A stretch of 64,000 nt of DNA from Tribonema minus (lineage: Eukaryota > Sar > Xanthophyceae > Tribonematales > Tribonemataceae), in NCBI GenBank assembly GCA_017506865.1, contig JAFCMP010000191.1, positions 1-64,000 on the forward strand, given 5' to 3'. A program made the position numbers and the translations under genes. The notes beneath the pieces were generated by a model. The model searched no databases. It was not told the DNA's origin and saw only the letters and a program-made list of their open reading frames with translations. Below are positions 1 to 64,000 of the stretch, piece by piece. The first letter of the stretch is position 1, and the number at the start of each line of letters is the position of its first letter.

Positions 1-353
1 TTGAGCGCTGCTGTGAGCACCGTGCGCCATCCTCGGCTCCCTCCCGCGCGCCAGCTTCATGCTGATTCAGCTGCTCACGGCAGTGCGAAACAAATAAGGT
101 CGGATTTCTCGTTCGCTGCGCTGAACGCTGGGCACTGTTTGCTGAGCGCTGCTGCAGCTGGCGCTGTCAGACGTCGTGGAGCGCCCCGTGCTGCACGCGC
201 TGGCCGCGCTGGTGGCGCTTTTCACTGAGCGCTGCTGGCTCTGTTTGCTGAGCACGCAGTTGGCGCTGTTGTTGAGCGCTGCTGCTGGCGCTGTCGCTGA
301 GCGCTGCAGCTGGTGCTCACAGCGCTGCTGCTTCTGTTTGCTGAGCGCTGCAG
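1..353 (+). repeat. Intron with a tandem copy of the next exon's 5' edge
   Basis: This is the intron before the first visible reductase exon. Bases 154-216 nearly repeat 354-415 (the acceptor context, then the codons for LALSDVVERPVLHALAALVA). Between them lie degenerate GAGCGCTGCTGCTGGCGCTG-like words. The copy at 154 keeps a TGCAG acceptor but its frame soon fails, so I take the 354 copy as the real exon edge. A copied acceptor could allow alternative splicing. Confidence 0.6.
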
Positions 354-3300
354 CTGGCGCTGTCGGACGTCGTCGAGCGCCCCGTGCTGCACGCGCTCGC
401 CGCGCTGGTGGCGCGCATGCGCGGCGCGGCGCCGTCGCAGAACGGCGCCGGGAATGGCGCTCAGAACGGGCACGCGACAATCAGCAGCGGTTTCAAGAAC
501 GGCGCTGAGAACGGCTCCGGGAACGGTGCTGATGTGGTGGATCTACCGGCAGAGGCCGCCAAGCTGGACCCTTCCATATACCCCGCGCCCACGCGCAAGG
601 CCGGCTACTCTCGCTTCAGGTGCGTACTTCAAATTTGAAGTACATGTTCAAAGAGGCATAGAGGATCTTGGCAGCTGGGCTGTCTGTCGCCCTGCACGAG
701 ATCTGGTGCATGTATGAGTCGATGGCATGGCGTAACCAGCAGTGGTTTGCAGAGCGAGAGCTTTCTCACAGCGCAGCAATTACATCGGGGACCATTAAAC
801 ATGAGTGTATGTAGTATGAAAAACGAATCTGAAAATCGTAGAGCTCTAGGTGACAAGGGATGATTAGCCGCAAGTGCCTTCCATAGTATATGTTTTGCGT
901 TTCGAGGCTTGCCGAGGGCGGACGAGACGTAACTGCCGCAGCCGCCGCATTTCAGGGCGAGCACTGCTGCTGCTGCTCACCCCGCCCTGTCACTTCCACT
1001 TGCAGTCTCCAGCAGTGTCAGTCTCGATGCTGAGGTGCTGATGATGCGCAACTGCCACAAGGCGTTGCGCGCTTGACTTGCCGAGGTGGCATCTCCTTGC
1101 TTTCTATGCTAGCCTACCAGCTATGTACTTGTACTTTGCTGCAGCTACGCGCCTAGTCTTGCTGGTCGGCGCCAAGCATGGAGCGCTGCACACGCTGCTG
1201 CCTCTTGCAGACTCTTCGCAAAGACTTCACACTCTCACTCTTCAACGCCTGTCTCAACTGCCGCAAACCATTGTGCAGGGTGAGCGCTGCTGCCACAACG
1301 CCCACGCGCATGCTGCCGAGACGGACGTGCACCCGATTCATTCAATGACAAACGCTGCTGCCTCTCGCAGATGTTTCGCACAGACTTCACACTCTTTAAC
1401 GCCTGTTCCCCAACTGCCGCAACCGCTGTGCGCAGGGTGAGCGCTGCTGCCATTACGCTCGCGCGCTTGCCGCTGAGACGGGCGTGCAGCCGATTCATTC
1501 AATGACAAACGCTGCTGCCTCTCGCAGATGTTTCGCACAGACTTCACACTCTTTAACGTCTGTTCCCCAACTGCCGCAACCGCTGTGCGCAGGTTGAGCG
1601 CTGCTGCCATTATGTTTCGCACAGACTTCACACTCTTTAACGCCTGTTCCCCACTGCCGCAACCGCTGTGCGCAGGGTGAGCGCTGCTGCCATTACGCTC
1701 GCGCGCTTGCCGCTGAGACGGGCGTGCACCCAATTCACTCAGTGACACACGCTGCTGCCTCTCCCAGCCTCTTCGCAAAGACTTAACACTCTTCAACGCC
1801 TGTTTCCCAACTGCCGCAACCGCCGCTGTGCAGGGTGAGCGCTGCTGCTATAACGCCCGCGCGCGTGCTGCTGACGGGCGTCACTGGCTTCCTGGGTGCG
1901 CACATCCTGCACCACATGCTCATGGAGACTCAGGCAAGCGATACGTACTACCTACCGACGCTGTTGCACTTGGAAACCGAGTTCGATTATGTTGCTATGG
2001 CATTCAGGCAAATGAGATACGTCATCACAGTATTGGACACTCAGGCACGAGCTGCGTACTCACAGTGTTGCACTTGGAAACCGAGTTAAGTATTGTTGCT
2101 GTGGGCATTCAGGCAAGCGATTCGCACTGACCCACAACAACGTGCACTTGTTAACCGAGTTCACTTGTATTGCTGTGGACACTCAGGCGAGTGAAGCGTA
2201 TGCGATGCATGTTCACGGCATGGCACCTGCAACTCTGCACTTGACAGAGTTCACTCACGTTGCTGTTGACGTAGGCGAGTGACACTGAAGGACGGTGTTG
2301 CATTTGAAAACCGAGTTCACTCGTGTCGCTGTAGTAGTTTGCGGAAACAACCGCGCCAACGCATGTATGTATATATGCATGTAGGCATCCCGGCACCACC
2401 TGTGACGTGACCGGGTCGGGGCTGCCGTTGAATGTCACATGTCCTCAGCTTGTATCTGAAATGATCGCACTTTAAATATGATTGCGCTATGGCTGCGGAA
2501 GTGACAATGGCAAAATCTGATTGAATGTAGGCCAATGTAGACTCCACAATTGCACAAGAGCTGGAGTTAGCATCCAGCCCCCCCACCCCACCCCTCCACC
2601 ACCACCCTGTCACCTCTTACCACCAGCAGTGCTCAGCTCACGCTCGCCGCTGCTGACCCCCCCCCCCCCTTCCCCGCCTCCCCCGCCCCCACATGCCAGG
2701 TGGTCGCCGTCTACTGCATCGTGCGCGCGCGCGACGCGGAGCACGCCGCGCAGCGCATCGAGGCAGCGCTCAGGGCGCTGGGCCTGTGGAGCGCTGACGT
2801 CGCGGGGCACGTCGCCGAGTGCGTGGTGCCGATCGTCGGGGACCTCGCGCGCCCGCTGCTCGGCCTGCCGCTGCGCGACTTCCAGGCGCTCGCGGGCGAG
2901 CTTGACGCCATCATCCACGCCGGCGCCAAGGTACGGCTTGCACGCATGTCGTGTACTTCTATAGTTCAAGAAGTAGTTGTAGTGGCCGCGAAACGCTGCA
3001 GCTGCACGGCCTGTCGCTGCGCGATTTCCAGGCGCTCGCGGGCGAGCTCGACGCCATCATCCACGCCAGCGCCAAGGTACGTAGTCGCGTCTCTTACGCT
3101 GCGTTCGCGGCCTGCTGCTTACGTGCGCATGTTGTGTACTTCTGGAGTTGAAGTGGCCGCAAAGCGCTGCAGCTGCCCGGCCTGCCGCTGCGCAACTTCC
3201 AGGCGCGCTCGCGGGCGAGCTCGACGCCATCATCCACGCCGGCGCCAAGGTACGTACGCGGCCGCATCCCTGTCGCGCTGAGCGTCTGGGGTGCGCCCGC

Positions 3301-6300
3301 GGTGTATCGCCCGGCTGCGGCTTGAAGTTGCTGCGGTGTCGCCGCTGCGCGATGTGCAGGCGCTCTCGCGGGCGAGCTCGACGCCATCGTCCATGCAGGC
3401 GCCAAAGTGCGTAGGCGCATCCCTGTCGCGCTGCGCGTCTGGGGTGCACGAGTGGTGCGTCGCGCGTCTGCTGCTCGAAGTGCTGGTCTCTGTCAGAGAC
3501 ACTCCCCATCAACCGTCGCCGTTTCGTTGCTAGCGAATACCCACCCGCCATTCTGTAAATGCCCACTAACCCCTGCCTTCGCTCTCATATTTCCCAGAGC
3601 CTGGAGGCTGCCAACGTGCTCAGCATGCAATTTTTGCAGCTGTTCGCTGACACCTGGTCAACCTGTCACATTCCTGGTGAATGCCTACCAACCCCTCAGA
3701 TCGCCCCCCTACCAGGTCAACCTGGTGCGCCGTGCCAGGGCCTCAAGCCCCCCAGTGTGCTTGGCACTCTGTGCTTATCCCTGCTGCTTGCTGAACACGT
3801 GGTCACCCTGTCACCTTTTTTGGTGAATACCTGCTAACCCACCGACGTGAGGGTTGGATTAGGGTTAGGGTTAGGATTAGGGTTAGGTTACCCCCCCCCC
3901 CCCACAGGTCAAGGCAGCCAGTGTGCACACCTATAATACGAAACACACACTAACCCTTCATATTTCTGGAGTATCACTCTCATCCCCCCCCCCCCCCCCC
4001 TCTCCCCCCTTCCCAGGTCAATCTGGTGCGCCCCTACCAGAGCCTCAAGGCCGCCAACGTCCTCGGCACGCAGGAGGTGCTGCGCCTGGCCGTCACCAAC
4101 GGCTTTGCCACGCGCGTCAAGCCCGTGCACTACGTGTCCACCAATGGCGTCTTCCCGTTCGGCGCGGGCGCGCCGGCGCGGCGCCGCGAGGGCGATGATT
4201 TGTCCGAGATCTGGCCGCAGCTCACGGTGAGCGCTGCTGCTGCTGCAGTGAAATCGTAATCAAAGCAGTGCCACGAACTCTCAAATAATTGAATGTGCAC
4301 TCAGGAGAGTCAGATGGGTTCGTTTGTCGGAGCCATTGCAAGTGTTTACGTGTGTTGGGCGCCGCGAGGGCGATGATGTGTCGCAGATCTGGCCACAGCT
4401 CAGGTGAGCGCCGCTGAACGGTCTGAAGAAAAGGCGCTGTTGCGTATTTTACAGATGAAGATTATTCAAAAATATTTAAAACTTGGTCATTTGCGTCACA
4501 TCGCTCAACTTAAAGTGAGCAAGGCGCCGCGAGGGCAGCGATCTGTCGGAGATCTGGCCGCAGCTTACGGTGAGCGCTGCTGCAGAGGTGCTGCAGTGGA
4601 GTTGTAATCAAGTATGAAAACGAACTCTGCACTTAAGCAAGTCAGGTTGCTTCGTTTGCCGAAGACATGACAAGTGTTTTTGTATGTTGGGGTCGCGAGG
4701 GCGACGACCTGTTGGTGATCTGGCCGCAGCTCACGGTGAGCACTGCTGCATTGGAACCGTCATCAAAGTATGGACACGAACCCTTAATAGAAGTACAATC
4801 AGTCCCTGAAATCAGGAAAGTCAGATGGCGTCGTTTGCCGTAGATACTACGAGTGTTTTCGTATGTTGGGCGCCGCGAGGGCGGCGACCTGTTTGCGATC
4901 TGGCCACAGCTCAAGGTGAGCGCTGCTGAGCGCTGCTGAGTTCTCATTGCCCTTGTCGAGAAGACTTTGCTTTCGGAGCATCACCTCACCGGCTCCCCCC
5001 CACCCCCAATTCAACACAAACTCTCGGGATGGCTACGCGAGCCCGAGTGGGCCGTGGAGGCCATGTGCACGAATGCGCACTTATGGACACCCTCCGCTTT
5101 GTCACCATATTGCCCACTTTCAGAGCGCCACCTCAACCCCCCCTCCTCGCTCCTCCCCCCTCCCTTGCCTCAACACCGCTCTCAGGACGGCTATGCGCAG
5201 ACCAAGTGGGTCGCGGAGGCCATGTGCGCGGAGGCGCGGCGCCGCGGCCTGCCGCTGAGCATCCTGCGCTGCGGCAACATGGCGCCGTCGTCCGCCACGG
5301 GCGCGTGGAACGGCGCGGACTTCATGTACCTGGCGCTGCGCGCGTGCGCGCAGCTCGGCTGCGCGCCGGACGCCGCCGCGGGCTGGAAGGTGCGTCAACT
5401 TGAAGTTTTGATGCTGAGCGCAAGCTTGGGCCGTAGGTTCAACTTTCATAATGCACATCAAGGCTTCTTGCGGAGGGAGTACAGTCGTGCGGCGTGTACT
5501 TGGCGCTGTGCGCTGCGCGCCTGATGCGGCCGAGGGTTGGAAGGTGCGTCAACTTCAAGTCCCTAGTGTGAGGACAGACCGTGCCTGTAAGGTACAACTG
5601 TTGAACAAAAAGTACGCCTCTCGACTGTACACCTCGGGTCATGGACCATGTGAAGGTCTCAATGGGCGTCTTGGCTTGCAGGGAGGCGATGAAAGCATCG
5701 GCTTTCAAGTGCCCATGCATCGAAGGGGGCGTCGCCCCTCGCCATTTTTGTGAAGCAACTGTTCACGGCTTCTCCCTCTCACTTGCGCCGCCGCCGCTGC
5801 AGGTGGGCATGACTACGCCGCGTGCGCCATCGTGCACTGCGCTGCCTGCTCTACCTAGGCATGTTGCACATACATTGCGCTCAAGCGCATCTGGTCCGAC
5901 ATCTCTCTGTCGCAACTCGCACAGCTGATGCGCAGCGCATCAGCCGCACAATGGTGTCTGCTTACGGCTTGCCTGCATCGTTTGCGCCTTCCTTGTAAAC
6001 TGACCCGTGCCTTAATCTCGCACGATGCCATGATCGTTAACGAGTGATATAACAAGCAGATGCCTGCTGCATTTGATCGTGTCGTCTGCTGCAGGTCGAC
6101 ATGACGCCTGTGGATTATGCCGCGTGCGCCATCGGGCACTACGCTACCTGCTCTCTTTAGAAAGTGCGCATACCTTTCACTGAAGCGCTTACGGTCTGAC
6201 GTCCCTTGCAGTTTTACGACCAATGCATAGCGCGTCGGTCTCACGACGGTGTCTGTCCACGATTTATTTGCGCCGCCGCTGCAGGTGGACATGACGCCCA

Positions 6301-8547
6301 TCGACTACGCCGCGCGCGCCATCGTGCACTGCACTACCTGGAAAATGGTGCAAAACTTGCACGCAAGCGCTTTTGGTCTGACGTCCCTCGCAGTTTTACG
6401 ACCAATGCATAGCGCGTCGGTCTCACGATGGTGTCTGTCCACAATTTGTTTGCCTCACGTGTGCCGCTATCGCTGCAGGTGGACATGACGCCCGTGGACT
6501 ACGCCGCGCGCGCCATCGTGCACTGCGCCGTCACCGACCCCAGCAAGGCGCTGGGCAGGGTGCTGCACGTGCAGAACCCACAGGCCGCGGTGCCATTCGA
6601 GCAGGTCAGTTGCAATACAAAAACAGCACTCAGCACTAATGATGACATTGCTCAAGGCGAACCGCAGGCCGCAAGTGCGCTTCGAGCAGGGCAGCCGCAA
6701 CGCGCGAGCAGTGCTCGGCATCTCATCAGACGGCAACACTCCAGCGTTTCGCCTTTGCGTCAACGACCGCTCCGTGCGCCCTCGAGCTGCTGTCTCCGTT
6801 CATACGCTTTTGGGACTGTGCGCGCTTTATCGTGTGGCTTTACGTGTGTGCAGAAATTTCAGTTCTGCTGATGAGTCATGTTCAGCCCCCTCCACTAATT
6901 GCCGCTAGTCCTACCTTTTTCCTTGCATGCGAGGTTCATTATTGACAAGCATGTTGTCAATTTGTGCGGAAATTGCAGATAGTTCGGGTTAGGGTCAGGG
7001 TCATGGCCTATGAGTCATCGTGCAGCCCCCTCCCACAACTGTCGTTCGCGCTCCCTTACTTGTCGCATACAAGCTTCACTGTGAACGGGCACGGTGTCTA
7101 ATTTGCTGCCAAGCCGTCATCGTTCAGCCCTCTCTACCAACTGCTATCACTTCTGCCTCAGTTCTTGCACGCAAGATTCGTGATTGATGGGTGCGCTGTC
7201 AAACTAACTGCTGCAAATGCAGGTGCTGCAGTGGATGGAGGCCGCCTCCAAGGCGCCGCTAGAGCGCGTGCCACTCGCGGAGTTCAAGTCGCGTGTGACG
7301 GCAAATGCGGGCACCTCCGACACCCTCGCTCAGGTACACTACTCATGATTCATGCATATGAATATGATATTTCAACGTACTTCTATGAATTGTAGCCGCT
7401 GGAGCACATGATGCTTGCGGTTCAAGGCGCACCTCCGACAACCTCGCTCAGGTACACTATCCATGATTCATGCATATGAATTTCAACGTATGTGAATTCT
7501 GCGAGGACCTGTCTGTACACAGTGAACGCTGTGGCTGAGGAACAGCAAATTCGCTCAGGTACGGCCATCATTTCAGAGAACTTGGTAGTGTATCTTGTGC
7601 CAATGGCGTGTACTCTGCGCTACCCAACGATGCCACAAATCTTGCGACGCAGGTGCGGGCCTCAGTGAACGCTTGGCAATGCTTAGAAGCAGTCGCTAGC
7701 CTGAACACATCACAAAGCCATTTTCCAGGGCGCACAGTCGGACTTCGGGGTAGGGTCAGGACTCCGGGGTAGGGCCAGGCTTAGGCTCAGGGCTACGGTC
7801 AGCATCAATGCAGGCAGCTGTGATGCTCTCGCCGATACGGTCTTCTGCAGTGTACGCAAATGCACCGGGACTTACGGTACAGTCTGCAATGACGGCTGCA
7901 CCAGAACCACAGGTTTGCTTCTGGCCTCACGATGCCTTAGAGGCACTGCAACGCGAAGTACTCCGCGCACTCACAAACCATGAACTCAGGCAAGCGTTCA
8001 GGTGGGTGTGTGACCACATTTGCAGCTTCGCACCATGTGGCGCTTCACCCTAACGCTAACCCTAAACTGTAACATATGCTCGTTCCGTGGTCGGTTTGCA
8101 ATACTTGTACGGCGCTCCTGCACGGCGCCTGTTGCCGCCCATGGTCATAGCTCATAGCGCAGCGCTGCGCCCGCATGACGCAGCATAAGTTCAACACACA
8201 CCGGGCACTTGACATTGTCACCGATACTGAAGCATTTCCTCTGAAGTACTTCATGATTACCGGTATGACCACCACCACCTTCTCAAAAGCTTCTGCAATT
8301 GCTGAACCAAATACCCCCCGGCGGCTGCTGCGCGCTGCAGGTGGCGGCGGGCTTTGACAGCTTCGACCACTACCTGGCGGAGCCCGGCGATTTTGGCGGC
8401 GACGAACTGGCAGCAGCGCTCCAGGGCACCGGGCTAACGTGCCCGGCCGTAGACTCGGCGCTGGTGTCGACGTACGCGGCGACGCTTTTGGCCAACGCGA
8501 CCAGTGACGGCGACGGCGGCGGCGCAAACGGCACCGCGGCGCAGTAG
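354..8547 (+). CDS. Thioester-reductase C-terminal part of an NRPS-like / carboxylic-acid-reductase enzyme (5' partial)
   Basis: Eight exons: 354-619, 1834-1933, 2700-2930, 4017-4226, 5186-5389, 6479-6604, 7223-7333 and 8341-8547 (TAG stop). All phases agree and give 484 residues. Exon 1 starts with the last helix of a phosphopantetheine carrier domain (LALSDVVERPVLHALAALVA), then an N/G-rich linker, then LPAEAAKLDPSIYP, which is typical just before thioester-reductase domains. The Rossmann motif TGVTGFLGAH opens the extended-SDR reductase; later come IHAGAKVN, YVSTNGVF, the catalytic YxxxK as GYAQTKW, and LSILRCGN. In this family the domain uses NAD(P)H to release the carrier-bound thioester as an aldehyde or alcohol (Lys2, carboxylic-acid reductases, NRPS/PKS R domains). 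The adenylation or ketosynthase part lies left of the window, so the substrate cannot be told. Intron 2 has a GC donor. The family call is strong; the exact enzyme is open. Confidence 0.85.
1255..1833 (+). repeat. Tandem copies of exon 2 acceptor edge
   Basis: At least four degenerate copies (near 1250-1330, 1405-1490, 1570-1615 and 1650-1730) of the sequence that surrounds the true acceptor at 1833. Each has a CAACTGCCGCAACCGC...GTGCAG tract followed by GGTGAGCGCTGCTGCCATTACGC, which corresponds to the first codons of exon 2 (VSAAAITPA). Between them recur TTCGCACAGACTTCACACTC words. Confidence 0.75.
1934..2345 (+). repeat. Tandem copies of a GC splice donor (GC-AG intron)
   Basis: The phase-consistent end of exon 2 is ACTCAG followed by GCAAGC. 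No GT donor in this neighbourhood restores the frame to the next exon at 2700. Downstream, five degenerate copies of the donor edge occur (TTCAGGCAAATG, CTCAGGCACGAG, TTCAGGCAAGCG, CTCAGGCGAGTG, CGTAGGCGAGTG), separated by words such as TTGCACTTGGAAACCGAGTT. All keep GC, none GT. Confidence 0.7.
2985..3425 (+). repeat. Tandem copies of exon 3 donor edge
   Basis: Three degenerate copies (near 3010-3080, 3165-3255 and 3340-3412) of the last ~60 bases of exon 3. The encoded words LRDFQALAGELDAIIHA and AKV are still recognisable, and each copy still ends in CCAAG followed by a GTACG or GTGCG donor. The copies drift out of frame and include stops, so the donor at 2930 is chosen: only it joins in phase to the exon at 4017. 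Confidence 0.8.
3848..3890 (+). repeat. Interstitial telomere-like repeat (TTAGGG type)
   Basis: A run of imperfect TTAGGG units (GGATTAGGGTTAGGGTTAGG and so on) inside the intron before exon 4, ended by a poly-C tract. Similar words lie in other introns of the window. It marks intron sequence rather than a chromosome end, since genes continue on both sides. Confidence 0.75.
4235..4940 (+). repeat. Tandem copies of exon 4 donor edge
   Basis: Three to four copies (near 4355-4410, 4527-4580, 4688-4742 and 4868-4925) of the exon 4 end, GCCGCGAGGGCGATGATTTG...ATCTGGCCGCAGCTCACGGTGAGCGC. Units are about 160 bp and share intronic filler (AAGTCAG...CGTTTGCCG, GTGTTTTCGTATGTTGGG). The donor GTGAGC is kept in most copies. 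Confidence 0.8.
5010..5080 (+). repeat. Copy of exon 5 acceptor edge
   Basis: AACTCTCGGGATGGCTACGC...GTGGAGGCCATGTGCACG repeats the start of the exon at 5186 (CTCAG then GACGGCTATGCG...GCGGAGGCCATGTGCGCG) with drift. The copy has lost the AG, reading CTCGG instead of CTCAG. Confidence 0.65.
5490..5565 (+). repeat. Copy of exon 5 donor edge
   Basis: GCGCTGTGCGCTGCGCGCCTGATGCGGCCGAGGGTTGGAAGGTGCGTCAACTTCAAGT repeats the end of exon 5 and its GTGCGTCAACTT donor region at 5340-5400. The copy carries a stop (TGA) in the exon frame. Confidence 0.65.
5795..6345 (+). repeat. Tandem copies of exon 6 acceptor edge
   Basis: Three copies (near 5800-5850, 6090-6145 and 6280-6340) of the exon 6 start: CTGCAG, then GTGGACATGACGCCC...TAC, then GCCGCG...GCCATCGTGCACTGC. 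The last copy before the true exon is almost perfect over ~50 bases. The copies are followed by shared intron filler (GTCTGACGTCCCT...CAGTTTTACGACCAATGCATAGCG). The 6479 exon alone stays open into a proper donor. Confidence 0.8.
7415..7565 (+). repeat. Copies of exon 7 donor edge
   Basis: GGCGCACCTCCGACAACCTCGCTCAGGTACACTA at 7420-7458 repeats the end of exon 7 at 7305-7340 together with its GTACACT donor and the following ATTCATGCATATGAAT. A shorter relic (ATTCGCTCAGGTACGGCC) sits near 7550. Confidence 0.65.
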
Positions 8548-8775
8548 GCGCAGGCCTTTCGTGAGCCGCTGCGTTTCGAAGCCGTGCTGCGCGAAACGGT
8601 ATTGCGGCGCAGTGAGCTGGCAGTGGCGACGGCGGCGGCGGCGCAACTGGCGCCGCGGCGCAGTAGGCGCAGGCCTGTCGGGAGCTGCTGCGTTTCGAAG
8701 CCGCGTAGGCGGGGGGGGGGAGTTGGCAGCAGCTGCGCGAAACGGTATTGCGGCGCAGTGAGCTGGCCCTTCGGG
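8505..8775 (+). repeat. Tandem duplication over the stop codon and 3' end of the reductase gene
   Basis: A unit of about 130 bp holding GCGCAGTAGGCGCAGGCCT, TGCGTTTCGAAGCC, GCGCGAAACGGTATTGCGGC and GCAGTGAGCTGGC occurs twice (from ~8529 and from ~8659). The second copy has a GGGGGGGGGG insertion. The same kind of duplication seen inside the introns thus also affects the 3' end of the gene. Confidence 0.7.
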
Positions 8776-9749
8776 GCGCCCCGCCGCTCGTGTTGATGGT
8801 AAATAGGACGGGGCCCTCGAGCCGCGTTGCAAGAGTGGTTGTATGGGGGTTTTGTCCTGGGGGAATGGGGGGGGGGTAACGGCTTGCGTCTTATTGTGTC
8901 CTGTGGCATCTATGTGTCACCTAAATAGGCTAGGGAATGGTGAGCCCGCTAGGATGGATGCGCGTCATTTGGCAGCTGCCTGTACACCAGCCAGCTAGCT
9001 GCACACGATTGTGCAAACGGTCGCGCGCACACACACTACTTTTGCAGCGAGAGCTGACAGTTTCATTGTGAGACAGCGGAGCGACGGTCGTTCACATTTT
9101 CTGTGGCTCACTTGTGTCTGCGGTTTGGTAAGTGTCGTGTTGCGTAAGCATCAATATATTCAGGGACGACTCATGCACGGGATCCACAAGCGAGTGTACT
9201 GATTGTGCTGTTGCTTCTGTGTGGTCAAGCTTTGCTTTAAAGGAACATTGAAGCGCAGTTTGCCCGCAGGAGGGCCAGGGGCTCTGGGTACGCTGCGCTG
9301 TGCAAATGGCACACGCGCACAACAGATGCATTGAACAGTACTTGAGGTATCAGCATATACTTCAAAGTACTTGTACTTTTTATTAATTGTACTTCAAAGT
9401 ACTGATAAAATACAGGTCATACGCTAGAGATTCTACTGCAGCTGCGTGCACTTCTGCAGCAAGTGCCACAAGCAGTGCATACAATCTGTCAAGCTGGCTG
9501 ACTACACGTTGATGCTTGAAGAATTTGGCGCTCGAACTGTTTCTGAAGTGCATTCTTTTTTTGAACACCTCTACATCTTGACGATTTGACTGCCAGCAGC
9601 GCCCACATGGAAAATCACATTCAGTAGCGTCTGCATACATGGGTATACAAATTGGGGTGGTTGCGCGTCTCGTACAGCATCGTTTCCATGACAGCACAGC
9701 GCCTACAGAACAGCGGCTGCATCGTGCCATCTACGAGAAGGGAAGGAGG

Positions 9750-9809
<60 letters not shown>

Positions 9810-10585
9810 CGGTGCCCCCCCCCCCCCCCCCTCTCCCCCACGCCCTGCGCGCGCACGCAGCGTGTGGCCGGTGATTGGCATGCCTGCTGTCGCGGCGAGC
9901 GGGACCCTCGTGGCCAACACGCATGGTCAGCGAATGGCAGCAGCTCGGCATGCTCGGGAAGATCGGCTTCCAAGCGTATGAGCACTGCTGCTTCAGAGCT
10001 CGATGCGCGCGTGCCGTCGATCGCTGAACGGCGTGCGCACGGCGTATGAGCGCTGCTGTGCTAGGTCACACATATGAGCACTGCTACGCCGCCATGTCAC
10101 GCCTCAGTGCTCAGAGCATGCGCGCGCTTGAGCGCTGATGGCGTGCGCCCACGTTTGCTGGAGGGTCGCGCGCGGTGCGCAAAGAAGGCACTATCTGAGC
10201 ACCGCGATGCTGCAGCTCGTGGCACCAGGGTTCCGCAGAGAGATGCCACAGGCACTTGGCGGGACATAAACATCATAGTCTTGGCGCATTTTAGGGTGGC
10301 AGCATTGCACGCAGCGCTGTGAGGTACACACCACGCAGCAGCTTCACGGCGCTTGACAAGGACGTACGCAGCCTTTGTGCACGATTGACAATGCCGGACC
10401 TCTTTGAGCAGTATCAGAATGACATGTTGTTTACATGCAGCTGTGTCTTCACCTGGATGTGCGCGCCGTTGAACTTGCAAGTTGAACTTGCTGATTTCAT
10501 TTCACCTCCGAGGAACATACTTCTCATCGCCTGGAGTTTCTAGGTACGCTACTTGTGCTCAGATCTCTCTGAGATTTGATTTCAG
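8776..10585. other. Gene-free stretch
   Basis: No frame here has recognisable protein motifs, matched splice phases or coding-like third positions. The stretch contains a large homopolymer foldback (listed separately) and several TTTGAAGT/ACTTCAAAGTAC words near 9360-9410. Confidence 0.5.
9741..9831. repeat. Long poly-G tract followed by poly-C
   Basis: About 70 uninterrupted G from ~9740 are followed by CGGTG and about 15-16 C. The C run can pair back onto the G run, and the G run can form stacked G-quadruplexes. Such tracts are prone to length change and sequencing error, so the exact length may not be reliable. Confidence 0.85.
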
Positions 10586-12145: not shown

Positions 12146-12419
12146 GATGTGTTGTGCAAGAGGTGATATGTTCAGCTGCTGATGCCGCTGGTTGCATTAT
12201 TTCATTCTTGGGATCGCCATAGGCAGTTCAGCACGGCATTCGCTGCCAACTCCCTCGTGCAGCAGACCTCAATTATCAATGTAGAGGTTGCACCAAGTGG
12301 ATTCCTGGCAGCGCTCTCTTCAAGCGCTCCTGTATGCACTCCACAGACACGCACATGAATGAGAGCTCTTTTGGTGACAATATTCTCGCATAGACCTGGT
12401 TTTGTGTTTCTCTCTTTGC

Positions 12420-21765: not shown

Positions 21766-21779
21766 CATTATCATCAGAT

Positions 21780-54151: not shown

Positions 54152-57100
54152 CTGCAGTGCCGCCAGCGCCAGCGCGTCCGCCTCCCCCTGCGTCGCCGCC
54201 TCCGCGTACACGCGCACCGCGTCCTCCGTGCCGCTGGGCCGCACGAAGCAGCGCCCGCGCGGGTCCAGCGCGTGCGCCTCCGCGTTCAACCGCGCCTGTG
54301 CGCAGTCGCAAGCGCAGAAGCAGAATGTGAATGCGGAAACTGTTGTGTTTTTTTAATCTGTTCTTCGGCAGTGCAGCGAGAGATGAGTGCCGCAGGGCAG
54401 CGTGCAGTCCAATAACGAAGCAGCGCCCGCGCGGGTTCAGCGCGTGCGCCTCCGTGCTCGACCGCGCCTGTCAGCGAGACGCATGCGGGCAGTCGTAAAT
54501 GCAGAAGACGAATGTGAAGCCTGCCAGCGAGGCGCGTAGCTGCAGTCGTGGATGCGGAGACTCAATTGTGTGTTTTTCGGCAGCGCAGAGAGAGATACAT
54601 GAGGGACGGGCAGCGCGCAGTCGAATAACAAAGCAGCGTTCCGCGCGGGTCTAGCGCGTGCACCTCCGCGTTCAATCGCGCCTGCCGGCGAAACGGGGTC
54701 CAATAAATATTGCTTTAAGTCACAGCACTCGCAGTTGTGTAATACAGCACGAGACAACGCGTGAAAGCGTGGTCCAGCAGCTACTGCAGGGTTGGCGGCG
54801 CAAGCGCGCGCGTTTCGTCCGCGGTGTCGGCGCATCAGTTGCAACCAAGTACCTCTAAACCCAACAGTTACCATAGTACAACCATAACAAACAACATGTG
54901 AGCGCATAATTACGCAACTATGCGCGTGTGAGCGCAGAATTACGCAGCTAAGCGCGTTTCGTCCGTCCGCAGTGCAGCGCACCACGCTCCTGTCAGCGCG
55001 TCGGTTGCAACAATGTACCCCTAAACCCCAACAGTCACAGTTACCGCAGTACACCACCACTACAAGATAATACGTGGGTGCACATGCCCCACTGCAACTA
55101 TTACTTCCATAGTACAACACAACACAAAGACAGCACGTGAGCGCGTGATTTCGCAACTTCGCGCGTTTCGTCCGTCCGCGGTGCAGCGCACCACGCTCCC
55201 GTCAGCGCGTCAGCCGCAATTATAGACCTCTCAACCCAACAGCCACGGATACCATAGTACTTCAAGTACAACACAATATCAAGACAACACTTGAGCGCAT
55301 GGTCACAGTGAATTGTATACATACCTGCAGGTTTGGCGGCGCAAGCGCGCGCGTTTCGTCCGCAGTGCAGCGCACCACGCTCCTGTTGGCGAGTCAGTTG
55401 CAACAATGTACCCCTAAAACCCAACAGTCACAGTCACCGTAGGACACCACTACAAGATAACACGTGAGCGCATGAACATGGCAAGTATTAGTATGTAGTA
55501 CCTGCAGGTTTGGTGGCGAAAGCGCGCGCGTTGCGTCCGCTGTGCAGCGCACCACGCTCCTGTTGGCACGTCAGCCGCAATTATGGACCCCTAAAACCCA
55601 GCAGTCACGGTTACCATAGCACTTCAAGTACGACTTAAAAGACAACATCTGAGCGCATGGTCACGGCGAATTTTACACATACCTGCAGATTTGGCGGCGC
55701 AAGCGCGCGCATTTCGTCCGCGGTGCAGCGCACCACGCTCCTGTCGGCGACGCGCAGCTTCGCCTGCAGCACGCGCAGCACACAACACAAAGCAGCGCGG
55801 GTCACAACAACGCTCGCCACAGCCGCTGAAGCTCTGATTCTCAGTGTAAGAGACTTGATCAATATTCAAATCTTTGATTTGAAACCTATCGTCGTGACAC
55901 TCACAGCATCGCCTGAGTGAATTGCGTTGCCCATGACGTTGAAATTGCGAATGCGCTTCCGGTCATCACGAGCCCCAACCCCAACCCTAACCCTAACCTA
56001 CCAATAACCCTAACAAAGACACTAACGCACATCCCGACACCAGCCTCGACAGCAGGCTTAACGCTTGCTTCTGACCTACGTGCAGCAACGCTCCACGACT
56101 TGTTATGCGCCTCTGAACCTACGAGTCTGTGCATGTGATAATCTGGAACCTTGCTCCTCGCACGCTCTTCACTGGAGCCACGGCAGCACCAAGCGCGCAG
56201 AGCTGAGTCAGAGCACAAGCGCAGGACTTCACTACGGCGCTGCGCTCTCGTGATTGTACTGCTATGATCTGTCGCGGCGCGCACCTGACGGCTCGGCAGA
56301 TCCGCGCTTGTCAACAGACACAAACCACCTCACTGAGCGTCCTTATTAGCGTTAGCACCGTCCTGAGCGCTGCCGCGGCGCGCACCTGCGGCAGATCCGC
56401 GCTTGTCGACAGACATCGAAATGAACCTTTGCGTCTCTGCCAAGGAGGTGCGGACCTCATTAACCTCACAAATAAAAAATACTTCTATGGAGATTAGCGC
56501 CAGGACCGTCCTGAGCGCTGCTGCGGCGCGCACCTGTCGGCTGGGCAGATACGCGCTCGCCAAAAGACACTGAAATCCACCCTTGCATCTCTGCCAACCT
56601 CCTTACTAAACCTCCTTATTTCCTTACTAAACCTCCTTGTTAGCGCCAGGACCGTCCTCAGCGCTGTCGCGGCGCGCACCTGGCGGCTCGGCAGATCCGC
56701 GTACATGGCGTCCCACTCCGGCAGCCCCCACTTCCGCAGCCGCAGTATCACCTCCGCCAGCAGGATGTCGCTGAAAGCGTCGCCGACAGCCTGCGGCGGC
56801 ACGGCCGGAGGGCGAAGCGCGCGCAGCGCAACACGCCGGTAGAATCAGGGTTGGGGTTGGGGTACTACAATGAGTAGATGGTTTTCTTGCGTGTTTTGAC
56901 ACAGTACGTATTACTCTCTGGCGCGGCGCACTGGTGAGCACCCTAGGATTAGGGCTGCAGTTAGGGTACTACACTGAGTAGAGTGGTTTTCTTGCGTATT
57001 TTCTGAAGTACAGTACTGCCAAGTACTATTGCTCTCTGGCGGCACCAGAGCAGCGGGCCAGAGGGCGCAGAGCGCGCTCGCAGCGCGATGCACCGGTCAG

Positions 57101-60100
57101 CACCCGTACGCGCAATGAGAGCCCCAACCCTAACCCTATATGCGGCAGGTTTGTTTGGTGGTGCTGCACTGGGTGACAGAGACGCCGACAGCCTGCGGCA
57201 GCGGACCGGGGGGCGAAGCGCGGCCCACCGGTCAGTGCCCTAGGATTAGGTTTAGGGTTAGAAATAGGGTACTACGACGAGCAGATGGTTTTCTTGCTTC
57301 TTATAGTATACTTCGAAGTAGCACCATGACTCTTTGGCGGCGCCAGAGCAGAGCAGCGGGTCAGAGGGTGCAGAGCGTGCACAGCACGGCGCGCAAGTCA
57401 AGTCAGCAAGTCAAGTCAGCAAGTCAGCGCCGTACGCGTGATGAGAGGCCCGACCCTGCCTACCACAATGCGGGCGCGACATGCGCGCGCTGTGTGTTGT
57501 CTGGGCCAAGCCTTCTGAAGCCGCCTTCGGATGTGCGATGCGTGGCGCACTCGACAAGCACTGTCGTGAATGACAGCATACTCGTTTGCGTTCTCGGCCA
57601 TGGTCAGAAGTTTTCAAGTTATAGTAATGGGTAATACTTGGGGAGGCGGTCGGCACTGCGCTGTTGTGCAATGTAGCATGCCTTGCAACACACGCACAAC
57701 ACATGACATTATGATACACTTCAACATGATATACTTGAAGTATATACTTCCATATACCTACAAGCATATACTTTGAAGCGCACACATTGCATGCATTGAA
57801 GTGCACGCATCGCATGCATATTGCCGGCATTGCGCGACTCGCTTGTCAGCCAGCTTTTCAGCACATCGGCAAAGCCAAAGCCACCGCGTCACCACACTGC
57901 CACTGCCCACCTGGTTGACCAGTTGCCGCACGTGCAGCAGCCGCTTCACCGCCAGCGCCTTGCGCCGCCGCGCCTGCTGCGCCGCTGCTGCCTGCCGCTC
58001 CACCTCCGACCCCCGCCGCGCGCGCTGCCGCCCGCCCTGCAGAGCGCGCGCGACCGAGGTATCGTGTTCAAACTTCAAACATGTTCAAACTTCAAACTTG
58101 AAGTTAAATGCAAGTCGGACTTCAGCTGTTAAGTTGCGTGATACAACACGGTAAACTTCAACTTTGCGCGGCTGCTGCCTAGCGCTCCACCTCCGACCCC
58201 CACCGCGCGCGCTGCCGCCCGCCCTGCAGAGCGCACGAGACCGACCGTCAGCGGTGTCGTGTGCACACGTCAAACTTGAAGTTAAGTCCGAGTTCAGCTG
58301 TTGTGTGGCGTTATACAACACGGTGGTACTTCACTTGTGCGCCGGCGCGCCTGCTGAGTCGCTGCTGCCTGCCGCTCCACCTCCGACCCCCGCCGCACGC
58401 GCTGCCGCCCGCCCTGGCGCGCGAGGCCTACCGTCAGCCATGTCATGAACTTCAAACTTGAAGTTAAATCAGGTGCCGCCACTGTCACAAAGTCCGAGTG
58501 CTTAGATCAAACTTCAACTTTGAAGTTATGTCACCGCTAGTAACTTGGGCGCACAGCTCCCCACGCATTGTGTAATGCCCCAAAGTCCAACACAGTGGTA
58601 GTTCAAACGCTAATGCTTGACGTCAAGGCAGCAGTGACCACGCACGAGCAGTCCAGGAGAAGGGGGGTAAACCTGTTCACTCGCCGACGCGGTGTTTGGA
58701 CCAGAGCAGCTCTAAGAAGTGCATTGATGCATGCAGAAGGAGAGTCACCTGTTTACTTGCTGCTACCGCCGCCGCCTCCGCCACCGCCTCGACGCCTTGC
58801 AATTCGTGCTGCGGTCGCGACGCGGCGGCACGCGAAAAAGGGTGAGATGACCATAGGCTTTGGGGCACGAACAAGTGGGGTAGGCAGGTATCAGCGCCTT
58901 TGCGCCCAGACGGAAGCGTCACACACTGGCTTTGAAGGCCTCTGCAGCTGGCCTGCGGCTAAACTGCGCACTGCGCGTGCACACCAATGGGTTTGTGGGA
59001 GGGCGTAACTTCTGACAGTGAACCGGACCGGATCTAGATTGCAATGCTCGGCGGTGCAGCGATGGTCATAGCGGCAATCTGTGTGTACCTTTTGATAACT
59101 TCGCAGCGGCCATGATCAACAGCAGCAGCAGGGGGCAAATCGCAAGGGAGAGGGATCACATTAGTCGAGGTTCCATTGACGCGTCAAGACCCCATGCAGC
59201 CAGGCGCCGCCACCCTAAGTGTCGAGCGCGCGGCTCGGTGCCCGCGTGGGCATCGCCGATGCAGGCGCCGTGCTCACATCTCAGTACGTGTCGGCATCAG
59301 CGAAGTAACGATGTAACAAGGGTTAGGGTTAGAGAGGGTAGGTATACTGCCCCGCACTCGTGACTGCAGCGTGGAGAGTCCTTGAAGAGCACCGTGCTTT
59401 GCTGGATAATTAGTCATCTGATGGTAAGGGCTAGCGTTGGGGGTACGCATCGCTGACGCAGGCGGCGTGCTCGCGCGTCACGGTTACCCGCCGACACAAC
59501 AGGCGCCGCGCGCGCGTCTCAACGCTGCCCGGCCGATACGCGTCGCGCACGGAGACCATGCACACTGCACCTGCGCTGAACAACGCCCGGACGCACGCGC
59601 GCCCCCCCCCCCCCCCTCACCTGCCGCAACAGCAGCGTGACGGCTGCGGAATCGTGCGTCTCAGTAACCGTGCCGATACGCATGGACAGAGACCACGACC
59701 CTAACCCTAACCCTAACCCTAACAACGCATGGGCCGCGCGTGCGCCTCGCTACCTGTGATACTCGGGCGCCGAGAAACCTGCGTCGAGCAAAGCCCCGGA
59801 CGCACGCCCCCCCCCCCCCCCCCCCCGCTTGCCGCGACAGCAGCGTGACGGCTGCGGACTCCTTTGAGGAGAACCGTGCCGTGCCTGTCGGCTCAGTCCT
59901 TGGCGGTTACAACATGAACATCCGAAGTGAGGCTGGAGGCATGGAGCATCGTGGCGTTGGTCGAGTATCGAGGGTTGGGATTAGCGTTGAGGTGGGGGGT
60001 AGGCACATCGCCCCTCACCTGCCGTGACAGCAGCGCGGAGACTGCGGAGTCTTTGAAGAGCGCCGTGCTGTGCCCACTGGCCTTCAACGTACTTGAGGGT

Positions 60101-63100
60101 GAGTGTGCTTTGATGATTAGTGTTGGGGTCAATGTTGAGGGTAGATGTATGATATCGCCCCCCATCTGTCGTGACAGCAGCATGGAGACCGTGGAGACCT
60201 TGCAAGGCACCGCGCTGTGCCTGTTGCTTAAGTACCTGGACCGCAGGATGAGTGCTTTTAGAAGTTACAAGTCGCCCTCACGTGAGGGTTTAGGGGTGAA
60301 GGTAGGTAGGTATTGCCCCTCACCTGTCGTGACAGCAGCGTGGACACCGCGGAGTCCCTGAAGAGCACCGTGCCGTGCCAACTGGCCTACAAGTACTTGA
60401 AGGTACATGTGCTTTGAGAGGGTTAGTCTTGTGGTCAATGATGAGGGTAGCTATATGACATCGCCCCTCACCTGTCATGACAGCAGCGTGGAAACTGCAG
60501 AGTCCTTGAAGAGCACCGTGCCGTGCCCGTTGGCCTACAAGTACTTGAAGGTGGGTGTGCTTTAAGAGGGTTGAAGTGAGTCTCGATGAGGGTATGTAGG
60601 TATGTATTGCCCCTCACCTGTCGTGACAGCAGCGTGGAGACCGCAGAGTCCTTGAAGAGCACCGTGCCGTGCCCGTTGGCCTCAAAGTAGACGCCGACGT
60701 CGTAGCGCAGCGCCTCGTGATGCAGGAACTTGACGCCCGTCGCAGCAAACGCCACCTGCGCGTGACGCAGCAGCAGTTACACTGTTGAAGTACGCGCGTG
60801 GTTGAAGTTTGGTTGCGGCAACAAAGGCCTCTGGCTCACAGCACCAGCGGGCGCATCTGGCTCTATAATAGAAGTATAAAACGCATCACATAATCACAGA
60901 TATTTCTGTAAATAGTCGTAGCGCAGCGCCGCGTGATGCAGGAACTTGACGCCCGTCGCAGCAAACGCCACCTGCGCGGAACCGCAGCAGATTTGCTGGT
61001 TGAAGTATAGATGCACTTGAAGTTTGGTGGGGCCAACAAAGGCCTCTAGGTCACACCAGCACTGGGCGCATTAGGCTCTGATAAAACGCATCACATAATC
61101 ACAGACATTTCTGGAAGTGTTGTAGCAGCGTGCTCACAAAAAAGAGTGCCCCGCCCCGGACCCTGACCCTAACGGCTGCTTCACCTCAAACCAACAGGAC
61201 TTGCCCCATGGGCTTGAACATCAACACGACGGTACACGCAACATGCGTCAGCGCTCAACGAGCAACGGGCGCGCAGCTGCCAACCTTAATACCGTCAGCC
61301 TTGACGAACGCAGTGGACGCCCCATTCCCGTTTACTGATACTGCTCACCACAATCTAGCTATTGTTGTGATGTTCACTGTAGCAGTTCATACGTGTCATA
61401 CAAGTTTCGGAGGTCAAAACGGGCGCGGCCGCTGACCTTGATGCCATTAGCCTTGACGAACGCATCGGACGCACCATTGGCGGTAACTGATACATCTATG
61501 GCTCACCATAATCTAGCGCTGCTCAAGAATAGCAGGTCACATGTGCCGTGCAAGTTTCGGCGGTCAGAAAAACAGGCGTGGCGCTGCTCACCTTCATGCA
61601 ATTGGCCTTGAGGAACGCAGTGGAGGGCCCGTTCGCGTTAAGTGAAACTTTTACATATGGCTCACCATACTGTAGCTACTGCTGTTGCGTGCAAGAATAG
61701 CAGGTAACATGCGCCGTACAAGTTTCGGCGGTCAAAAAAACAGGCGCGGCACTGCTGATTTTGATGCCATTGGCCTTGAGGAACGCGGTGGATGCCCCAT
61801 TCGCGTTAACTGTATTACTCACCACAATCTAGCTATTGCTGTTTTATGATAAAAATAGCACATCACATGTGCCATAGAGAATTTGGTAGTAAGGCGGTCG
61901 CTGACCTTGATGCCATTGGCCTTGAGGAACGCGGTTGACGCTCCATTCGCGTATGCCGTCTGCACCACGGCCATGCTCAGGCGGTGGTGCAGCCCCGCCG
62001 CCGCGAGCTCCTCCTGCAGGAACGTCGCGACGAGCGCTGCCATCTTGTCGCCGTCGAGCAGGTGCCACACGCCTGTTGCACGCGGCAGCAGCGTAGTTAG
62101 CATCAGCATCTATCTTGTCTGTACGCTGCGGCGCACCGCAGGCGCATGGCCGCTTGGTTTGCGTTGTGCATACTTCAAAGTGCATGAGTACTCCAGAGCG
62201 TTGTGCTGTTTGTCGCCGTCGAGCAGGTGCCACACGCCTGTCGCGCACGCAGCAGCAGCGGCAGCAGCAGCGCAAAACTCAGTCCGAGGGCTGCGAGAAT
62301 ACAGTGACGGTTCAATAAGGCATCAGTGCTCAGTGCCTCTGCGAGCTTCTCCTGCAGGAACGTCGCCACGAGCGCTGCCATCGTGTCGCCGTCGAGCTGG
62401 TGCCACACGCCTGTCGTGCGCGAGCAGCAGCAGCAGCAGCAGCGCAGTGTTCGTTGCAAGCTTCCATCTAGAGATTGTCCACTGTAGCGCTGCACGATGG
62501 CGGCAGCGCCAGCCTGTGCGCCTGCGCGTGATGGCGCGTGACGCACGCGCGCGTGACAGAGCGATGGGTTCAACAAGGCATCAGTGCTCAGTGTTGTCGC
62601 CGACGAGGAGGTGCTGCGTGACTGTCGCGCAGCAGCAGCGTCCGTGGGCCGCGATGTTGCATTGCGAGATAGCCGGCCATGCACGCGCCTGCCTCACGCA
62701 CGTACGCAGGGTTACGATTGGAGTTAGGGCTTAATGATAGGGTTAGGGTCACCGCGGTACGCAGGCCGCCGCCGCATCAGCGTCAGTGCCAGCCATAACT
62801 GCATCACAACGTGCACGGCACGGCTGCTCGTCGCGTTATGCATGTCTTCAATATTGTACGGCGGAGTACCGCTCGGATGTGTCTTTGATATGTGTGGCGG
62901 ATAATGTGTGTGCTACGCCATCTTGTCGCCACCGAGCGGGTGCGACGCGCCTCACGCGTGTGCGCGCAGCACAGTGAGCACCTCATGCAGCGAGCAGTTC
63001 AGTTCATGAAGTGTGCGGTTCAGTTCATGGACTCTTAACGGACATCAGCGCCAGGCTGTTGTATTCTTGTACTTAAAAAGTATTTATAAAGGGTGTATGT

Positions 63101-64000
63101 GCTGCAAAGCCTGCTTTTGAAAGTACCTCAAAGGAGGCACACTTCGAAGTGCGTACACTTGACAGTACTGTAGATGCAACTACAGACTTGTTCCTTCTGC
63201 ATAATTTCTACCTATATGCACATGACAACACTCACTGCTACTGTCAAAGTAGTGATACGCCAGCCTGTTGGCACCAACCGCCCAGTATACTCGACAGTAG
63301 CCGCAGGTACAGTCCCTGCTGCAGAATACTACGTACTGTGGAGCAATATCATACTTCGCAGTAGCACTCACCGCTGCTGTCAAAGTAGTGGTACACCAGC
63401 CTGTCGGCGTCGCCGTCGAGGCTGCAACATCGCTTGCCTGCGGCAGCGACCGTAGGGCACCAACCGCAAGTCAGCTCACTCACAAGTCACGATACGAGTC
63501 TCAGCGTCCTTTGAGCTGTTGACTGTGAAAAACACATGCTATATATCATACTCCACCAAAGTTGCCGACGTCCATGCGCACCTAGTCATCGGAGTGAGCA
63601 ACAGCGCTGCTCGGCGCACCGCAAGTGAGTCCCACTCGAATTCCGACGTAGCAATGCCGCCCTCCCGGACGCTGACGTGCACGGGGTGCGCAGCAGTTCT
63701 AGGTCATGCGGCCGCACGTGGTGCGTCAACTTCGCTGCCGCCTCGTACGCCGAGCAAGCTCATACGGCAAGCTCGTACGGCCGCATGACCTGGAACTGCT
63801 GTTGGAGCACGTATGGGTATGTACGCTCGCAGGTATGTGGTGCATCAACTTCAACTGACGGCGCCGCCGAGCGCTTCCATCGCTCGACGCAACAGAGGCA
63901 GGCGAGCCGACGCAGCAAGCAGCAGAACACGGGGCTTCAAGGTCGTACAGCAGTTCAAGACATTCGGCAAGCAGCAGTGCTCACCGTTGTCGCGCCCCGC
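54152..64000 (-). CDS. AGM1: Phosphoacetylglucosamine mutase, C-terminal part (5' end beyond window)
   Basis: Minus-strand exons: 63421-63372, 62072-61906, 60755-60618, 58036-57911, 56790-56680, 55763-55683 and 54295-54152; all phases agree. Family landmarks appear in order: metal-binding [65 protein letters not shown]...[18 protein letters not shown], and the phosphate-binding [20 protein letters not shown]. The enzyme (EC 5.4.2.3) converts GlcNAc-6-phosphate to GlcNAc-1-phosphate in the cytosolic UDP-GlcNAc pathway, which feeds chitin, N-glycans and GPI anchors. The active-site phosphoserine half lies right of the window; a donor-like GTGAGC at 63984 may end the preceding exon, though its phase is unproven. 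A short last exon after 54152 was not found; without splicing the frame stops at 54101-54103. Confidence 0.88.
54425..54705 (-). repeat. Copies of acceptor edge of exon 54295-54152
   Basis: GCCCGCGCGGGTTCAGCGCG then TGCGCCTCCG...CGACCGCGCCTG occurs at ~54424-54472, and GTTCCGCGCGGGTCTAGCGC then GTGCACCTCCGCGTTCAATC at ~54636-54685. These match the true exon start at 54250-54297. Both are followed by GCAGTCG...GCAGAAG filler. Confidence 0.75.
54790..55610 (-). repeat. Tandem copies of donor edge of exon 55763-55683
   Basis: About five units of ~185 bp repeat CTGCAGGTTTGGCGGCGCAA then GCGCGCGCGTTTCGTCCGCG...CAGCGCACCACGCTCCTGTCGGC, near 54785, 54950, 55155, 55325 and 55500. The filler includes CCCCTAAACCCAACAGTCACAGTTACC and ACACGTGAGCGCATG. 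Confidence 0.8.
55973..56014. repeat. Telomere-like CCCTAA run
   Basis: CCCCAACCCCAACCCTAACC then CTAACC, AATAACCCTAAC; an interstitial CCCTAA-type run in the intron between mutase exons 56790-56680 and 55763-55683. Confidence 0.75.
56280..56560 (-). repeat. Copies of donor edge of exon 56790-56680
   Basis: CCTGAGCGCTGCCGCGGCGC then GCACCTG...CGGCAGATCCGCG, the image of the exon end at 56650-56702, recurs near 56270, 56370 and 56508. Filler is TTAGCGCCAGGACCGTCC and CATCTCTGCCAACCTCC. Confidence 0.75.
57170..57235 (-). repeat. Copy of acceptor edge of exon 56790-56680
   Basis: ACGCCGACAGCCTGCGGCAG then CGGACCGGGGGGCGAAGCGC matches the exon start and acceptor at 56780-56822 (TCGCCGACAGCCTGCGGCGGCACGGCCGGAGGGCGAAGCGC). 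The flanks carry CCCTAACCCTA and TTAGGTTTAGGGTTAG words. Confidence 0.7.
58165..58440 (-). repeat. Copies of acceptor edge of exon 58036-57911
   Basis: GCTGCTGCCTGCCGCTCCAC then CTCCGACCCCCGCCGCGCGC and GCTGCCGCCCGCCCTGCAGAGCGC of the true exon start (57977-58045) recur at ~58165-58230 and ~58361-58425. Each is followed by ACTTGAAGTTAA filler. Confidence 0.85.
59315..60617 (-). repeat. Large array of donor-edge copies of exon 60755-60618
   Basis: Units of ~130-155 bp repeat CCCCTCACCTGTCGTGACAG, then CAGCGTGGAGACCGCAGAGT and CCTTGAAGAGCACCGTGCCG...CCCGTTGGCC. Copies are clear at 60470, 60318, 60160, 60010 and 59817, and relics lie at ~59620 and ~59365. Filler is TACTTGAAGGTGAGTGTGCTTTGA and GGGTTAGTGTTGGGG-like words. 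The copies decay with distance from the real exon. Confidence 0.9.
59699..59723. repeat. Perfect telomere-like (CCCTAA)4 run
   Basis: ACCCTAACCCTAACCCTAAC and onward: four perfect CCCTAA units within the donor-copy array. This is the cleanest telomere-like run in the window. Confidence 0.85.
60910..60980 (-). repeat. Copy of acceptor edge of exon 60755-60618
   Basis: GTCGTAGCGCAGCGCC...CGTGATGCAGGAACTTGACGCCCGTCGCAGCAAACGCCACCTGCGCG matches the exon start at 60697-60762 almost perfectly, acceptor included. Flanking filler (GTTGAAGTA, GGCCTCT) is also shared. Confidence 0.85.
61265..61800 (-). repeat. Tandem copies of donor edge of exon 62072-61906
   Basis: Four units (near 61285, 61434, 61590 and 61760) of ~150 bp repeat GCTGACCTTGATGCCATTGG then CCTTGAGGAACGC...GTGGACGC...CCATTCGCG of the true exon end at 61899-61955. 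Shared filler is GCTCACCACAATCTAGCTAT and GTGCCGTACAAGTTTCGGCG. Confidence 0.85.
62195..62650 (-). repeat. Tandem copies of acceptor edge of exon 62072-61906
   Basis: GAGCTCCTCCTGCAGGAACG then TCGC...GAGCGCTGCCATC...TCGCCGTCGAGCAGGTGCCACACGCCTGT of the true exon start recurs at 62340-62415 (almost complete) and in part at 62205-62245, 62590-62635 and 62920-62960. It is followed by CGCGCAGCAGCAGCAGC runs. Confidence 0.8.
63225..63305 (-). repeat. Copy of donor edge of exon 63421-63372
   Basis: CACTCACTGCTACTGTCAAA then GTAGTGATACGCCAGCCTGTTGGC at ~63228 matches the exon end and donor at ~63365-63408 (CACTCACCGCTGCTGTCAAAGTAGTGGTACACCAGCCTGTCGGC). The donor dinucleotide is lost in the copy. 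Confidence 0.75.
63691..63801. repeat. 24-bp inverted repeat (hairpin)
   Basis: Left arm CAGCAGTTCTAGGTCATGCG then GCCG at 63691-63714. The right arm at 63778-63801 is its reverse complement with one mismatch. The ~63-base loop contains further CGTACG and AAGCT words that can pair. Function is unknown; it lies in or near the 5' side of the visible mutase gene. Confidence 0.75.

Follow-up and report, generated by a model that had tools for sequence, protein, structure and literature searches.

How have the introns at this locus grown long, and why do they carry repeated pieces of the exons beside them? Intron lengthening is usually credited to transposons and small indels. For the stretch analysed here (positions 1-64,000 of contig C191 in a genome of 158 Mb and 554 contigs; hereafter the window), an earlier note proposed a repeated local duplication centred on splice junctions, which would lengthen introns and supply spare splice sites. 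We examined these proposals in the window and in genes on other contigs.

Results

Local direct repeats at exon edges in the window

Self-comparison of the window (start distance <6 kb) yielded 118 direct local repeat pairs versus 5 inverted ones. Most of the direct pairs (99/118) were separated by 100-600 b, and 17,278 of the 64,000 bases lay within local direct repeats. This excess of direct pairs and the presence of continuous arrays, for example one of 655 b at 71%, display the head-to-tail adjacency of tandem duplication.

The window contains a reductase gene (NAD_binding_4) on the plus strand, a phosphoacetylglucosamine mutase gene (PGM3/AMG1) on the minus strand and a third gene that the earlier note had called BAH-SH2. 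The BAH domain was found in this gene, but no SH2 domain was detected in the three minus frames of 24001-33999 or in the ten predicted exons scanned. Exon ends of the reductase were judged by eye from where the Pfam matches lie, the reading frame and the splice sites; for the mutase, a script placed exons and junctions on the basis of PDB alignments, while the donor after the exon ending at 56680 was chosen by eye. The mapped arrays are listed in Table 1.

In an edge test, the 50 exon bases next to each junction were compared by alignment with the neighbouring intron (threshold SW ≥ 40), each copy being sought by one junction. Five of the six window introns of the reductase and mutase carried an exon-edge copy, the sole exception being reductase intron 1934-2699, whose donor copies include only ~11 exonic bases. 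This intron is apparently GC-AG, and GC is retained in two of its donor copies. Arrays had been described on both sides of three exons. This holds for exon 28888-29011 (4 acceptor and 3 donor copies) and for PGM3 exon 61906-62072, flanked by 4 donor and 4 acceptor copies. For exon 27271-27403, the donor side was verified by 3 edge copies, one of them a perfect 50-mer. On the acceptor side, the array at 27397-28306 contains by eye only ~10 exonic bases and fails the 50-base test (SW 20).

Two large, mostly non-coding regions, poor in local repeats and reduced in G+C (0.50-0.53), lie between the repeat-rich genes, at ~8545-22921 and 44248-53700. Interstitial telomere-like TTAGGG/CCCTAA runs occur at 3850-3887 and 59698-59723, and CTAACCCTA is among the commoner 9-mers of the examined loci. 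The word ACTTCAA/TTGAAGT is about five- to fortyfold above independent-base expectation in gene loci and arbitrary stretches (window: 90 versus 4.7); TTGAAGT was rejected as a mark of the arrays, since it is enriched in array-free stretches too.

Table 1 Arrays and copies mapped at exon edges in the window
Feature	Position	Strand	Remarks
Donor-side array after reductase exon ending 1933 (apparent GC-AG intron 1934-2699)	1923..2332	+	Donor family; two mapped copies retain GC
Donor-side array, reductase exon 2700-2930	2846..3485	+	85 exonic bases; 3 mapped copies
Acceptor-side array, reductase exon 4017-4226	3593..4071	+	Exon-edge family
Donor-side array, reductase exon 4017-4226	4180..4938	+	4 copies
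Acceptor-side copy, reductase exon 5186-5389	5011..5237	+	Self-comparison, edge mapping
Donor-side copy, reductase exon 5186-5389	5358..5560	+	Self-comparison, edge mapping
Acceptor-side array, reductase exon starting 6479	5778..6528	+	3 copies
Donor-side array, BAH-gene exon 27271-27403	26279..27323	-	3 copies, one perfect 50-mer
Array abutting acceptor of exon 27271-27403	27397..28306	-	~10 exonic bases by eye
Donor-side array, exon 28888-29011	28360..28924	-	3 copies
Acceptor-side array, exon 28888-29011	28974..30189	-	4 copies in edge test; 7 beside true edge in repeat-family listing
Array beside predicted exon 35062-35247	34436..35133	-	Self-comparison and exon prediction
Donor-side array after PGM3 exon ending 56680	56269..56701	-	Donor chosen by eye
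Donor-side array, PGM3 exon 60618-60755	59306..60689	-	6 copies
Acceptor-side copy, PGM3 exon 60618-60755	60699..61126	-	Self-comparison, edge mapping
Donor-side array, PGM3 exon 61906-62072	61264..61952	-	4 copies
Acceptor-side array, PGM3 exon 61906-62072	61996..62971	-	4 copies
Donor-side copy, PGM3 exon ending 63372	63229..63408	-	Self-comparison, edge mapping

Exon-edge copies in introns of 14 gene loci

The edge test was applied to 63 introns of 14 gene loci, comprising two window genes, ten chaperonin genes and two actin-family genes, with 57 introns lying outside the window. A Pfam search of the genome returned 56 chaperonin matches, which were assigned to ten genes, all of them on other contigs, and 38 actin matches, from which three genes were taken and two used. 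Splice junctions were placed by frame, profile continuity and GT-AG. Six rows were removed for a junction score < 5 or a |delta| > 3 aa, and no C97 junction was used; two actin-family junctions (-10 and -12 aa) and two others (-9 and +5 aa) were kept despite their gaps. One C544 acceptor was shifted by eye to the second-ranked site, and one C235 junction was removed.

An exon-edge copy was present in the adjoining intron at 40/126 edges, compared with 0/126 for reverse complements, 0/626 against the introns of other genes and 2/40 for exon middles. The comparison confirmed that exon-edge copying is real and extends beyond the window. At least one copied edge was found in 31/63 introns, mostly long ones (26/57 outside the window), and both edges were copied in 9; the other 32 of the 63 had no copy at threshold. 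Introns with copies had a median length of 940 b versus 515 b for those without (p 8e-5), and the copy-bearing fraction was 2/13 below 400 b, 6/15 at 400-700 b, 13/22 at 700-1100 b and 10/13 at 1100 b or more. Many long introns thus carry copies, but in view of the last two classes the phrase "nearly every long intron" was somewhat strong.

Genes differed in their copy load (p 0.0024 among 11 genes with at least two introns), the extremes being two chaperonin genes with copies in 0/14 introns and another chaperonin gene with 6/6. On C51, partial repeats adjoining a true exon were visible even in the raw Pfam matches, where three of them start at profile positions 51-53. The exonic part of the unit ranged from 2 to 115 b, with 31/49 values within 30-65 b (flanks cut at 120 b or at exon length), and the unit spacing had a median of 152 b (10-90% range 108-248).

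In a homology-free test, exons were predicted in the window and in five arbitrary 10-kb stretches, which sit on long contigs already known from chaperonin matches; the codon model used had 17 verified exons (3,149 b) as its training set. A predicted exon edge was touched by 36/56 local repeat families, whereas 2000 circular shifts gave 15.2 on average and never more than 27. This count is an underestimate, because two families scored as non-touching (1922-2194 and 63228-63408) adjoin edges that were set otherwise. Repeats covered 38% of intronic, 21% of coding and 7% of other non-coding bases, the last class possibly including unrecognised introns.

A paralogous pair with and without copies

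Two divergent light-harvesting genes (A and B) are duplicated between contigs C1 and C79, the two versions being ~90% alike where aligned. No self-repeats were found at either locus in C79, whereas C1 has copies at the gene A acceptor, the gene B acceptor and the gene B donor. The gene B intron measures 660 b in C79, where it is copy-free, versus 966 b in C1, where it contains two extra acceptor units; since both contigs share this intron, it was lengthened rather than created in this pair. C79 provides a copy-free sister state for this one duplicated gene pair. Diagnostic calls over eight copies were C1-like in 31/40 cases, C79-like in 8/40 and neither in 1/40, suggesting that copying for the most part post-dates the split of C1 and C79. 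Repeated local tandem duplication across splice junctions that lengthens introns, as the earlier note had put forward, is supported in many genes by the edge test, by the homology-free test and by this pair.

At the end of the second gene-B exon (L060/L061), the donor lies at 1860 in C1 versus 1850 in C79, ~9-10 b apart relative to the aligned exon, as if the border had slid. Light-harvesting matches number 92 in the genome, two of which have fucoxanthin-type and other LHC proteins as their best PDB matches; the genome is thus that of a photosynthetic eukaryote. Two 18S patterns yielded no hit. Another pair of stretches, on C296 and C490 (L057, L058), is 100% identical over 3411 b in inverted orientation, as expected if the duplication is very recent or a haplotype was retained.

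Placement of duplications relative to splice junctions

The 63 introns held 60 repeat families, of which 44 were edge-spanning, 7 abutting and 9 internal (73/12/15%). Under random placement with decay, indels and like detection, simulations gave an internal share of 46%, or 53% and 39% with other decay settings, as against the observed 15%. Those simulations used intron lengths after collapse of the arrays (median 515 b). By collapsed length, internal families numbered 5/24 at 600 b or more (16.5 expected), 3/20 at 400-600 b (10.6 expected) and 1/16 below 400 b (5.0 expected), so that the deficit was greatest in introns that are still long after collapse.

The strongest alternative is random tandem duplication without junction targeting, in which selection clears events in exons and introns were ~200 b long when hit. 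Simulation with 200-b ancestral introns gave 71% edge, 15% abutting and 14% internal families, matching the observation without any centring; with ancestral introns below 400 b (median 279), the internal share was 26%, and the probability of at most 9/60 at 25% is 0.045. Four introns with two-sided arrays have only 9, 72, 108 and 137 b outside the arrays, in keeping with short ancestral introns, and the neutral decay of the copies (see below) is likewise compatible with this explanation. However, the collapsed introns are much longer than 200 b in the median and those of at least 600 b show the marked shortage of internal families given above. Moreover, the copy-free gene B intron of C79 is already 660 b long, yet its C1 twin was duplicated at the edge, and repeats are scarce in non-coding DNA outside introns (7%, against 38% within them). 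We consider random placement possible but doubtful.

When intronic letters alone were used, no edge excess was seen (17/46 families versus 15.9 expected), a comparison confounded by the splitting of edge arrays into false internal families. Since short ancestral introns fit as well and the intron-only test was null, a preference for the junction beyond purifying selection on exons is likely but unproven. The earlier claim that duplication is centred on splice junctions accordingly stands above the simulated nulls, with 9/60 internal families against 39-53%, but falls short of proof at the 14% given by 200-b introns.

Runs of six or more C occur at 6.6 per kb in the last 60 b before acceptors versus 1.1 in all introns (63 introns). 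At the C1/C79 loci, acceptor units seem by eye to break at C-runs common to exon and intron. A C-run hotspot was rejected as the cause of the copying, because the enrichment is absent at donors and C-runs cannot account for both sides.

Decay of the copies and growth of the arrays

Decay was followed in 106 junction-spanning copies at 51/129 edges, that is, the 126 edges above and three mutase edges, two of which were chosen by eye or had a poor gap fit. Agreement with gaps counted was 86-87% for exonic and 71-75% for intronic letters, and mismatches alone amounted to 10.7% and 17.8%, respectively. With gaps left out, mismatches at codon positions 1, 2 and 3 were 8.8, 7.6 and 16.6%. This pattern fits free drift of the copies beside true exons that change mainly at silent sites, because only one side then drifts at positions 1-2 whereas both sides drift in introns and at position 3. 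Splice bases within the copies were changed or gapped in 16/212 cases (7.5%), compared with 378/3563 (10.6%) at codon positions 1-2 (p 0.20). These data indicate that the copies decay like neutral DNA, and neither retention nor purging of copied splice sites was detected.

It has to be considered whether the copies are functional, serving as alternative or cassette exons or as kept spare or recursive splice sites. GT/GC is retained in 56/63 donor copies and AG in 37/43 acceptor copies, slightly above the whole-exon average (p 0.03 for donors and 0.07 for acceptors). Against codon positions 1-2, however, this advantage does not reach significance, which leaves room for weak retention, and the spacings lack the multiple-of-3 bias (33/36/37 of 106 by remainder) that the reading frame of cassette or mutually exclusive exons would demand. 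A functional role of the copies is improbable, and the earlier suggestion that spare splice sites are supplied finds no support as far as their maintenance is concerned.

Within arrays, the nearest copy was closer to the exon sequence than the farthest in 18/22 cases (p 0.003), in agreement with the decay with distance noted earlier. The accompanying idea that amplification begins at the exon edge was not supported. A first version of the test for a youngest first pair was without power (unrelated baseline 0.76); in the revised version, the pair of functional and first copy was more alike than later pairs in 13/24 arrays (p 0.70), and successive pairs were about equally alike at any position, which does not favour growth at the exon end.

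Units nearly private to each junction

An introner-like or other mobile element inserting at splice sites with long target-site duplications would place exonic bases in every unit, as is seen. The same element, however, did not recur across genes: intron matches between genes were found for 11/1796 pairs (E ≤ 1e-4), of which ten span 30-50 b and the eleventh spans 94 b at 91%, and intronic 80-mers beside junctions scored 0.106 between genes versus 0.27-0.32 within arrays. Moreover, only 1 local inverted pair (matches of at least 30 b) was present in the stretches scanned, and the exonic part of the unit is far from constant. A mobile element is thus very unlikely, and the distinction from introner insertion drawn in the earlier note was upheld. 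The 94-b match joins the C51 intron at 5989 and the C5 intron at 2661 (pieced-stretch coordinates) of two chaperonin genes and is perhaps a dispersed repeat. Tandem arrays are prone to assembly error, but an artefact is extremely improbable, as copies differ by 3-25% within the listed arrays, contigs reach 1.97 Mb, the exons splice into long chaperonin-like proteins and edge copies were found on nine contigs and on C1.

Discussion

Our results show directly that the repeats are tandem, direct and junction-spanning, that they lie on many contigs, decay in a neutral-like manner and accompany longer introns, and that a copy-free paralog exists. Recurrent tandem duplication across splice junctions, followed by neutral decay, probably lengthens introns in many genes. 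In the mechanism that we propose, segments of ~100-200 b straddling a splice junction (~50 b exonic and 100 b intronic) would duplicate in tandem, repeatedly and in many genes. After a donor-side duplication the first copy would stay joined to the exon, and after an acceptor-side duplication the last copy would. If, as we infer, the outer splice site is used, the message would be unchanged and the surplus copies would become intron. There they decay neutrally, may multiply into longer arrays and add to intron length. Duplication might be drawn to junctions by R-loops or by pausing of the polymerase at splice sites; microhomology of G/C runs is another candidate and would suit acceptors better than donors. 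More tentatively, splice junctions might be mutational hotspots at which a process tied to transcription or splicing (pausing, R-loops, the spliceosome footprint) re-replicates ~150 b at donors and acceptors, and this might be the main motor of intron growth.

No report of junction-spanning arrays at this scale appeared among the titles and abstracts listed, in which subscription journals are thinly covered. Gao & Lynch in 2009 reportedly dealt with internal gene duplication in eukaryotes and Zhuo in 2007 with human introns from tandem arrays, and both are said to concern intron creation or copies of whole introns. These cases share with ours duplications or arrays tied to introns in many genes; the units described here are instead partial, junction-centred and found on both sides.

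In the potato RdRp gene, a single tandem genomic duplication crosses an intron-exon boundary and creates a new intron (PMC4974935). The unit is of the same type, a junction-spanning tandem duplication. However, the potato case as described there is one event in one gene with a new intron, whereas here dozens of events at donors and acceptors form multi-copy arrays that lengthen existing introns. The earlier remark that no described precedent was known at this density therefore holds for the density, for which no report was found, but not for the unit, one of the same type having been published (PMC4974935). Where introns are gained from tandemly duplicated exon segments that bear AGGT (Rogers 1989; Hellsten 2011; described in PMC3443670, PMC2891723 and PMC4974935), local tandem duplication likewise gives extra splice sites and leaves the protein unaltered, but the unit is exonic and the intron new, whereas the present unit spans an existing junction. 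Introners are related sequences in many genes that cause large-scale intron remodelling (PMC9860276). The scale of remodelling is alike; in contrast, our units are nearly private to each junction. Their exonic part measures 2-115 b rather than the 3-9 b of a short target-site duplication, and local inverted matches of at least 30 b are nearly absent. What is new here is the density, the two-sided arrays and the excess at junctions over random placement, this excess being likely rather than proven.

Junction copies are a large source of intron DNA in this genome, at donors and acceptors alike, and some genes carry 12 or more decoy splice sites on which no selection is detectable. The arrays offer a natural system for asking how the spliceosome tells the true site from near-identical ones close by, and whether DNA at splice junctions is fragile. 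They also provide material from which introns could be gained, on a scale absent from the papers found.
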